Shown in pieces: positions 29,702-32,395 of a DNA stretch of 64,000 bases. Within the stretch, counting starts at the first letter, position 1; the number at the start of each line of letters is the position of its first letter. Position numbers and translations under genes: made by a program. The stretch spans positions 239,987 through 303,986 of the forward strand of contig NZ_ATWF01000001.1 in NCBI RefSeq assembly GCF_000421105.1, read 5' to 3'. The notes beneath the pieces were generated by a model, which saw only the letters and a program-made list of their open reading frames with translations, had not been told where the DNA came from and did no database searches. The DNA is from Limisalsivibrio acetivorans (GTDB lineage: Bacteria > Chrysiogenota > Deferribacteres > Deferribacterales > Geovibrionaceae).

Positions 29702-30517
29702 ATGACAGATTTCTCAGTGGCGGTTTTCGCCAATGATTCCTTATTGCTCGGGGAGGTTCTTGACAAGCTTGAGGACGAATTCCCCCTTTTCAGGTACACG
29801 GTGTACAGTATGCCGGAGTATCTCCCCCTTATCGCTTCGGACAGGCCGGAGATCTCTGCCAAGAGCATAGATGAGCTTTCCGATGAGGATATAATGGTTG
29901 TTCTCAGCGACCCCGGCTCAGCCAAGAAGACGATAGCTAAACTGGATGCCTCCATCGTTGATTTCACAGGGATCTTCGATGGCGATGACGACGATGTTTA
30001 TATAATACGTGAGCCACTGCAGTATGTCGCCTACCACGTTAAGGGTGACAGGCGCTCCGCTTTTATGAGCGTGTCCCTTCCGGCGGCGGCCTTCGGCAAG
30101 AACGGCATAGATGATCTTCTCAGCCAGACAAGGGAGCTCTTCTCCTTCACCCAGCATAAGTCGAAGGTGTTTGATGAAAGGCTCGCCTTCAACGTTATAG
30201 TTGATCCGGGTCAAGGCAAAGGGCTTTTATCCGGTTATGTTAAGAGCATGAGCGAGAGAACGGGGATGTACGTTGATGCGAGAATACTCCCCGTATCCAC
30301 CATTTTCATGGCGGATCTTGTCACTGTTGGAGAGAGCTACTTTGAGCCCGGTGAGGATTTTTACCAGTTTAAGGGTGAAAGCATTGCCGAGGCGGCAGAA
30401 AGCGAAGGCATCGGTATGATTAAAACAGCCGAAGGGAAGGTTACCCTTATCGGCGATTACATTAAAGTTGTGGCGGTTCAGGCCGCTGCAGGTGTGAAAG
30501 AAGCTACAGGAGTTTAG
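29702..30517 (+). CDS. Aspartate-semialdehyde-dehydrogenase-like protein lacking catalytic motifs (USG-1-like)
   Basis: A 271-residue protein not obvious at first sight. GIDDLLSQTRELFSFTQHKSKVFDERLAFNVI closely follows the ASADH segment G-x-x-E-L-x-Q-T-R-A-L ... P-x-V-F-P-x-x-I-A-F-N-x-I, and VSLPAAAFG replaces the usual V-S-x-x-Q-x-x-S-G-A-G. The N-terminus retains a Rossmann-like start but lacks GATGAVG, and no catalytic cysteine motif (S-N-C-S/T) exists. It is shorter than ASADH (about 330-370). USG-1 is a known non-catalytic relative. Neighbour of the NifS-like gene (3-base gap), so it may be coupled to Fe-S assembly; function unknown. Confidence 0.55.
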   Translation: MTDFSVAVFANDSLLLGEVLDKLEDEFPLFRYTVYSMPEYLPLIASDRPEISAKSIDELSDEDIMVVLSDPGSAKKTIAKLDASIVDFTGIFDGDDDDVYIIREPLQYVAYHVKGDRRSAFMSVSLPAAAFGKNGIDDLLSQTRELFSFTQHKSKVFDERLAFNVIVDPGQGKGLLSGYVKSMSERTGMYVDARILPVSTIFMADLVTVGESYFEPGEDFYQFKGESIAEAAESEGIGMIKTAEGKVTLIGDYIKVVAVQAAAGVKEATGV

Positions 30518-30520
30518 ATT

Positions 30521-31708
30521 ATGGCATTCCTGGACAATGCAGCCGGAACCAGGCCGGACGAAAGAGTTGTTGAAAAGATGCTCCCCTTTATTAAGGAGCA
30601 GTACGGTAACCCGAGTGCACATTTCTACCCCCTCGGCAGGGAATCCTTTGAGGCTGTGGCACTTGCAAGACAGCAGGTGGCGGAGTTTCTTGGCGCTAAG
30701 GAGGATGAGATTGTCTTTACCTCCTGCGGCACGGAGTCGAATAACCTCGCTCTTAAGGGTGCGCTTAATCATCCCTCCCGCAAGGACAAGAAGCATGTAG
30801 TTATCAGCGAGGTGGAGCATTTCTCCATCCAAAACCCCCTTATAGACTATCTCAACAAGGGGTATGAGATAACCAAGCTTAAGGTGGATGAAACGGGTCT
30901 TATCAACATCGAAGAACTTAAAAGCGTTATCCGTGAGGACACCGCACTCGTATCTATCATGTTCGGCAATCCCGAGATCGGTACGATGCAGTACAGTGAT
31001 GAGATCGGCAAGGTATGCCGTGAGAAAGGTGTTCTCTATCATATAGATGCTGTTGACGGAGCGGGTCATGTTAAGATCGATGTAAACGAGCTTAACTGCG
31101 ATCTCCTCAGCATAGCGGCCCAGAACTTCTACGGTCCCAGAGGTGCGGCCGCCCTGTATGTACGTGAAGGTGTCAAGCTTGTCTCAGTCCTTCAAGGCGG
31201 GCATCAGGAGAACGGTCTCAGAAGCGGTTCGGAGAACGTCGCCGCCATCGTAGGGATGGGGGAAGCCGCCCGCATCGCCAGAGAAGAGATGGATGACTAC
31301 GTTCCAGAGATGAAAAGGCTCCAGAAGAAGCTCTGGGAAGCACTTTCAAATATGTTTGACTTTTTACACTTTACAGGGCATCCTGACCGGAGACTTCCGG
31401 GGCATGTGAGCTTCTGGATTGAGTATATAGAGGGTGAATCACTGCTTATGTGGCTCTCCCTTAAAGGTATATATGCGGCGAGCGGTTCCGCCTGCTCCTC
31501 CAATATCCTCGCTGAGGATGAGGAGGATTTGGTGGCCTCACCCGTGCTTACAGCGGTGGGCGTACCGGATGATGTTTGCGCCGGCTCCATAACCTTCACC
31601 ATGTCGAAGTATACGACAGAGGAAGAGGTGGATAAGGTTATCGATGAACTCCCCGGCATCGTAAAGAAGCTTTGCGAGATGTCGCCCGCTTACAACAGGA
31701 ATGATTAG
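30521..31708 (+). CDS. Cysteine desulfurase homologue lacking the PLP lysine (NifS/IscS family)
   Basis: A 395-residue class-V aminotransferase-fold protein aligned along its length with NifS/IscS: FLDNAAGTRPDERV, YGNPSAHFYPLGRES, CGTESNNLALKGAL, VEHFSIQNP (His100), IDAVDGAG (Asp176) and the loop cysteine SGSACSS (Cys325). The site that should read S-x-H-K-x-x-G-P-K-G reads AAQNFYGPRG, so the Schiff-base Lys is Asn202 and the preceding His is Gln201. NNE-I-G is GNPEIG and the usual R-F-S-L-G is TFTMSK. PLP chemistry seems lost while the persulfide/cluster cysteine remains. It sits 9 bases before the IscU gene; a scaffold partner role is likely. Confidence 0.8.
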   Translation: MAFLDNAAGTRPDERVVEKMLPFIKEQYGNPSAHFYPLGRESFEAVALARQQVAEFLGAKEDEIVFTSCGTESNNLALKGALNHPSRKDKKHVVISEVEHFSIQNPLIDYLNKGYEITKLKVDETGLINIEELKSVIREDTALVSIMFGNPEIGTMQYSDEIGKVCREKGVLYHIDAVDGAGHVKIDVNELNCDLLSIAAQNFYGPRGAAALYVREGVKLVSVLQGGHQENGLRSGSENVAAIVGMGEAARIAREEMDDYVPEMKRLQKKLWEALSNMFDFLHFTGHPDRRLPGHVSFWIEYIEGESLLMWLSLKGIYAASGSACSSNILAEDEEDLVASPVLTAVGVPDDVCAGSITFTMSKYTTEEEVDKVIDELPGIVKKLCEMSPAYNRND

Positions 31709-31717
31709 GAGGACACT

Positions 31718-32167
31718 ATGTCTAAAGGACCATATAGCGAAAAGGTAATGGATCATTTCATGAACCCCAGAAACATGGGGGAGATAGAATCTGCTAACGC
31801 TGTGGGCGAGGTGGGAAACCCCGCATGCGGCGATGTTATGAAGATATTCCTTGATATCGACGATGACGGTATCGTAACAGAGGTTAAGTTCAAGACCTTC
31901 GGTTGCGGTGCGGCTATCGCATCCAGCTCAATGGCAACCGAGCTTATCAAGGGTAAAAGGGTGGAAGAGGTTCTCGCCCTTACAAACCAGTCCATCGTGG
32001 AATCACTCGGCGGTCTTCCCCCTGCGAAGATACACTGCTCCGTTATGGCGGAAGAGGCTATTGAGGCTGCACTTAAGGACTACTATGAAAGAAAAGGCGA
32101 AGACCCTTCAATCGTAGATAAAATGAAGGAAAATATAAAGAAGGATAATCCCGAGGGAGGAAACTAA
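31718..32167 (+). CDS. iscU: Fe-S cluster assembly scaffold IscU/NifU-N
   Basis: A 149-residue scaffold on which [2Fe-2S] clusters form. The three ligand cysteines are in GNPACGD, FGCGAAIASSS and PAKIHCSVMAEEAI, with the conserved Asp after the first. The start YSEKVMDHFMNPRNMG is typical. The LPPvK-type chaperone site is represented by LPPAKIH. AGGAGG precedes the ATG. It is flanked by the Lys-less NifS homologue and by nfu, forming a compact Fe-S module without IscA, HscA/B or ferredoxin. Confidence 0.92.
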   Translation: MSKGPYSEKVMDHFMNPRNMGEIESANAVGEVGNPACGDVMKIFLDIDDDGIVTEVKFKTFGCGAAIASSSMATELIKGKRVEEVLALTNQSIVESLGGLPPAKIHCSVMAEEAIEAALKDYYERKGEDPSIVDKMKENIKKDNPEGGN

Positions 32168-32395
32168 ATGACACTTCAAGAAAAAGTTGCTGAAGTTCTT
32201 GAGCAGGTTAGACCCGCTCTTCAGGCTGACGGCGGAGATATTGATCTTCTCGGCGTTACAGATGACGGCATCGTTAAGGTCCAGCTTACAGGCGCATGCG
32301 GAAGCTGCCCCTTTAGCACCATGACCCTTAAGCACGCCGTTGAGGGAAGGATCAAAGAGCAGATCCCTGAAATTAAAGAAGTTCAGTCTATATAA
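32168..32395 (+). CDS. nfu: Nfu-type Fe-S carrier (NifU C-terminal domain)
   Basis: A 75-residue single-domain protein. RPALQADGGDIDLLGV and LTGACGSCPFSTMTLKHAVE are hallmarks; the CxxC (CGSC) pair binds a cluster at a dimer interface. It is separated from iscU by only the stop codon and has GGGAGG upstream. A strong terminator follows at 32406, closing the operon that runs from 29.7 kb or further upstream. Confidence 0.93.
   Translation: MTLQEKVAEVLEQVRPALQADGGDIDLLGVTDDGIVKVQLTGACGSCPFSTMTLKHAVEGRIKEQIPEIKEVQSI

Follow-up and report, generated by a model that had tools for sequence, protein, structure and literature searches.

Among the genes on a 64,000-nucleotide stretch of the Limisalsivibrio acetivorans genome (contig NZ_ATWF01000001.1, positions 239,987 to 303,986; hereafter the window) is one, directly upstream of the Fe-S scaffold gene iscU, whose product has the fold of the cysteine desulfurases IscS and NifS but lacks their pyridoxal 5'-phosphate (PLP) lysine. 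Our analysis suggests that this lysine-less protein, termed pseudo-IscS here, is probably a catalytically inactive partner of IscU, with Cys325 acting either as a cluster ligand or as a sulfur relay. It amounts to a bacterial version, found class-wide, of an oddity known from archaea, the principle that an inactive IscS can pair with IscU having already been described there. In the literature searched, in which subscription journals were thinly covered, lysine-less IscS proteins are described as archaeal oddities; no mention was found there of Deferribacterales lysine-less proteins, nor of class-wide bacterial fixation, separation from a cysE-linked desulfurase, or the loop insertion and additional Cys353 described below.

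The altered active site

The reading frame (30521-31708, forward strand, ATG start) encodes 395 amino acids, and its motif region reads SIAAQNFYGPRG at the site where desulfurases carry H-K-x-x-G-P-K-G. Residue equivalences were established by alignment with Escherichia coli IscS (sequence from MG1655) and homologues, the alignment including 43 distinct full-length pseudo-IscS sequences (the clade) and, as a comparison set, 122 homologues with the His-Lys pair. His205 and Lys206 of the E. coli enzyme correspond to Gln201 and Asn202, encoded by CAG (31121-31123) and AAC (31124-31126), as an earlier note on this DNA had read them. The His position is occupied by Gln in 41 and Thr in two clade members and by His in all 122 His-Lys homologues, and the lysine position is Asn in 43/43 against Lys in 122/122, so that the conservation of Asn202 which the note had wished to see checked extends to every full-length orthologue. 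The same note had pointed to further changes at substrate and PLP residues, and these also stand up to comparison with E. coli IscS. Asn155, present in 108 of the 122 homologues, is replaced by Pro151 (30971-30973; Pro in 37 and Ser in six of the clade), the catalytic Gln183, invariant in the comparison set, by Asp179 (31055-31057; Ala in 41, Asp in two), Ser203 by Ala199 (Ala in 36/43) and Arg354 by Thr358 (31592-31594; Thr in 33, Gly in eight, Met in one and one gap), a position that is Arg in 42/42 canonical IscS sequences of the class and in 18/18 IscU-linked His-Lys sequences. All 43 retain the loop cysteine that carries sulfur, Cys325 (31493-31495) in the window protein and Cys328 in E. 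coli IscS.

Thus, of the features expected of an IscS or NifS enzyme, the loop cysteine is present and the PLP lysine, Gln183 and Arg354 are missing. Although pseudo-IscS matches the aminotransferase class V family (Pfam PF00266) with 237.5 bits against a cut-off of 21.5, it falls under all the curated NCBIfam IscS/NifS cut-offs, scoring 427 bits with the NifS model (cut-off 530.75) and 362.5 with the IscS model PRK14012 (cut-off 548). The K206A and Q183E substitutions each abolish desulfurase activity in E. coli IscS (PMC9978102). We infer from the residues replaced that pseudo-IscS would be without this activity, and where such genes are automatically annotated as active cysteine desulfurases, the annotation is likely to be wrong.

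Two features set the clade apart. A seven-residue acidic insertion directly after the Cys loop, ILAEDEE in the window protein (residues 329-335, 31505-31525), is found in 43/43 clade members and in none of the 122 His-Lys homologues, and an extra cysteine, Cys353 (31577-31579), is invariant in the clade at a position that is mostly Ala, Ile, Leu or Met in the comparison set. Cys353 lies close to the equivalent of Glu347, an IscU-contacting residue of E. coli IscS (interface from PMC2854127). A further cysteine, Cys385, is found in 39/43.

Conservation and genomic context

The genomes sampled comprised 48 members of the class, around Deferribacterales, that of the window being a 2.97 Mb assembly of three contigs with an estimated completeness of 99.99%. 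An orthologue of pseudo-IscS was found in 44 of the 48, the 43 full-length sequences being joined by one split fragment (G045), with 54-78% identity to the window protein, and the PLP lysine is missing from all 44. A sequencing error at 31118-31126, which the earlier note had named as a finding that would refute its reading, is excluded because the lysine is missing from every class orthologue found. Pairwise ratios of nonsynonymous to synonymous substitution (dN/dS) between close relatives were 0.02-0.10, and the gene order rodZ-like gene, a gene of the type at 29702-30517, pseudo-IscS, iscU and nfu is kept through most of the class; chance and decay are excluded because of these two observations. 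Judged from its sequences, pseudo-IscS is a constrained, functional protein under strongly purifying selection. A decaying duplicate or a sequencing error accordingly has a negligible probability as an explanation, no support for it having been found among these data and the pseudo-IscS clade standing apart from the class canonical IscS clade with full support (100/100 for each) in the tree. A recent duplication within the genome was rejected on the grounds of the same two separate clades.

The iscU gene (31718-32167, forward strand), whose product keeps the three cluster cysteines and Asp39 when compared with E. coli IscU, and the gene for an Nfu-like carrier (32168-32395, forward strand), recognised by profile matches to the NifU C-terminal domain, follow pseudo-IscS directly, which agrees with the placement given in the note. 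In nearly all members pseudo-IscS adjoins nfu and the only iscU of the genome, each genome having one full IscU and a few showing weak partial matches in addition. SufB/D was absent from 48 of 50 genomes searched, the two exceptions both belonging to family f5 (L103, G015:C57; G022:C110). Given this limited distribution, the idea that pseudo-IscS has its role masked by another Fe-S system was rejected. Searches of the window's genome gave no SufB/D, frataxin, A-type carrier or HscB, but the control searches for frataxin and HscB matched only E. coli among 14 genomes, so that those two absences are common. Since the trait is fixed beside the only IscU and SufB/D is missing in nearly all of the genomes, the partner of IscU apparently need not be a desulfurase. 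This fixation across most of a bacterial class makes it genetically testable whether the chemistry of IscS is what the scaffold complex requires, or whether IscS serves there as a docking platform and cysteine ligand.

The second, normal desulfurase that the note had suggested looking for does exist. A single canonical IscS with the His-Lys pair is encoded in the window's genome, at C1:1770220, as part of a cysE-iscR-iscS cluster that lies a long way from iscU, and the same arrangement occurs in most class members. Of 43 canonical loci (L001 and L064 being one locus), 39 had cysE and 32 an iscR-like match in the sequence retrieved around them, and none had iscU nearby. The canonical copy is kept in nearly all class genomes, none being seen in one genome with pseudo-IscS that is 73% complete (G031). 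With a canonical IscS in the genome, sulfur from cysteine can still be supplied in trans; the sulfide-fed or scaffold-only assembly suggested in the note is not established, and a sulfide feed is not required.

Predicted structure and the IscU interface

An AlphaFold2 model of pseudo-IscS, built from a 28-sequence alignment, had a mean predicted local distance difference test (pLDDT) score of 86.5 and a predicted template modelling score of 0.88, with residues 225-228 and 324-331 (the Cys loop) uncertain. The model matches human NFS1, E. coli IscS and Archaeoglobus fulgidus IscS (4eb5/4eb7), all from complexes with IscU, with template modelling (TM) scores of about 0.9, Z scores of 51-53 and root mean square deviations of about 1.5 Å. 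E. coli IscS contacts IscU through helix 309-316, Glu347, the end of helix 11 and residues 379-391 (PMC2854127). At the position of Glu347 all 43 pseudo-IscS sequences have Asp, and 17/18 IscU-linked His-Lys forms have Glu or Asp, but all 42 class canonical IscS sequences have Val or Ile, in a comparison that may be off by one residue in the alignment.

Comparison with known systems

The closest precedent is A. fulgidus IscS, correctly chosen in the earlier note, in which Lys is replaced by Asp and which is reported to lack desulfurase activity and to ligate the [2Fe-2S] cluster on IscU through a cysteine (PMC7585200, PMC5176006); the title of PDB entry 4r5f describes its D199K mutant. The archaeal protein (PDB 4eb5, 4eb7, 4hvk, 4r5f) resembles pseudo-IscS in its IscS fold, the loss of the PLP lysine, the pairing of its gene with that of IscU and the retention of the loop cysteine, but it has Asp and not Asn at the lysine site and is 36-39% identical in structural alignment. 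The bacterial clade is the only group for which the loop insertion, Cys353 and a canonical IscS linked to cysE are established here. Methanosarcina acetivorans IscS1 is likewise a homologue that lacks the lysine, and its genome encodes a further IscS that is active (PMC7585200), but the protein is archaeal and uncharacterised, and SufBC and several iscSU pairs are also present in that genome. E. coli IscS and human NFS1 in their IscU complexes share with pseudo-IscS the fold, the Cys loop and an acidic residue at the IscU-contacting position (Asp in pseudo-IscS), but are active and have the His-Lys pair; in E. coli, Gln183, Asn155 and Arg354 are present and the operon includes HscAB, Fdx and IscA, unlike that of pseudo-IscS. 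The minimal ISC system (MIS) offers a parallel in its two-component IscS-IscU style of assembly with few accessory proteins, but differs in that the IscU partner here, pseudo-IscS, is without the catalytic residues.

Possible function and alternative explanations

The scheme that we favour is that pseudo-IscS would most likely form an IscS-type dimer, that IscU would dock at the usual C-terminal surface, and that Cys325, on its extended loop, would provide an extra ligand for the nascent cluster, as has been proposed for A. fulgidus IscS, or a sulfur relay, Nfu then presumably carrying the cluster onward. Sulfur might come from cysteine through the separate canonical IscS (cysE-iscR-iscS), from direct use of sulfide, or from both. 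The sulfide route is plausible because sulfide can supply IscU in an anaerobic E. coli iscS mutant (PMC13015791), and the cysteine route is equally possible because canonical IscS is present. With the residues for sulfur release lost in the protein encoded beside iscU, and a normal desulfurase elsewhere in the genome, the making of sulfur and the building of clusters appear to be split between two proteins. More tentatively, and as a reading more likely to be wrong than right, it may be suggested that the class runs its only Fe-S scaffold with a split desulfurase, in which a catalytic IscS is tied to cysteine synthesis and a dead IscS holds IscU and, via Cys325, acts as a sulfur relay or cluster ligand, the loop insertion and extra cysteine having evolved for the job.

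In favour of an inactive partner of IscU stand the loss of the PLP lysine and the catalytic Gln in every clade member, the invariant Cys325, the strongly purifying selection, the conserved gene order, the single full IscU per genome, the near absence of SufB/D and, in the window's genome, the failure to find frataxin, an A-type carrier or HscB, together with the match of the model to IscS and NFS1 from IscU complexes and the acidic residue at the Glu347 position. In genus g12 (G021, L094:1907-3566; G032, L095), moreover, pseudo-IscS was not found and the canonical His-Lys IscS adjoins iscU, which is suggestive, being as expected if canonical IscS and pseudo-IscS substitute for each other beside iscU. 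A number of points weigh against this reading. The residues His104, Asp180 and Thr76 of E. coli IscS, which hold PLP in active enzymes, are retained as His100, Asp176 and Thr71 and are invariant in the clade, so that PLP or pyridoxamine 5'-phosphate (PMP) may still bind and act; the Cys325 loop is modelled poorly (pLDDT below 50); and the Glu347 comparison carries the alignment uncertainty already mentioned. Furthermore, the two g12 genomes are incomplete metagenome-assembled genomes (MAGs; 88% and 78%).

The PLP-stacking His and Thr71 are retained, as is the Asp holding the pyridine nitrogen, and this would fit an active PLP or PMP enzyme whose changed chemistry does not need the lysine; lysine-free PLP-fold dehydratases exist. 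Such an enzyme seems improbable here, since the equivalents of Ser203, His205, Asn155, Gln183 and Arg354 are changed too and E. coli K206A is inactive despite retaining some PLP (PMC9978102). It is also conceivable, although we think it unlikely, that pseudo-IscS is a specificity adaptor and not a ligand, canonical IscS passing persulfide to Cys325, directly, via a carrier or in a mixed dimer, and thence to IscU. Cys325, the clade-specific extended loop and the invariant Cys353 would suit such a role, as would the fact that nearly all genomes retain a canonical IscS at a distance from iscU, with Val or Ile at the Glu347 position. Canonical IscS may, however, be retained for tRNA thiolation and other pathways, and we know of no example of IscS-to-IscS transfer or of mixed IscS dimers, which counts against a relay of this kind.

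Exceptions, other lineages and the upstream gene

No pseudo-IscS orthologue was found in G021, G032, G034 or G041, all of which are many-contig, less than complete assemblies. In G034 (L096) iscU and nfu are preceded by an unrelated reading frame, and no iscS-like gene was found in the approximately 500 bp upstream of iscU that remain on the contig of this incomplete MAG.

Two other bacterial lineages also contain lysine-less IscS homologues, in one case beside iscU. In G051, from another phylum, a Gln-Thr form lies directly before iscU (L098:3069-4223), and the genome also has a canonical IscS adjoining NifU-type genes. In family f17 (G057 and G082) Asn-Gly and Asn-Ala forms (L136:1804-3012, reverse strand, and L183:1489-2673, forward strand) adjoin a gene for an RrF2-like regulator and not iscU. 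The search for further lysine-less forms covered top-scoring loci only, so that others may be missed; it gave no new case in the phylum of G051 (one genome) or of G056 (four genomes), and, in the 77-genome phylum of G055, only His-Lys forms at the top-scoring loci retrieved. A quick tree placed all the bacterial lysine-less homologues in one clade (91% support in the Shimodaira-Hasegawa approximate likelihood ratio test), but a more careful tree did not, a single loss in the three bacterial lineages being recovered in 41% of its bootstrap trees; one or two losses would fit. The A. fulgidus sequence lay outside the tree, and comparison with it relied on published papers, the titles of PDB entries and structural matching.

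The conserved gene upstream of pseudo-IscS (29702-30517, forward strand) ends 3 nt before it and has no Pfam match; in some class families a gene of this type was undetected in the gene-order comparison. Its product matches aspartate-semialdehyde dehydrogenase only faintly (21.8 bits against a cut-off of 284), and the gene possibly encodes another degenerate enzyme in the same operon.
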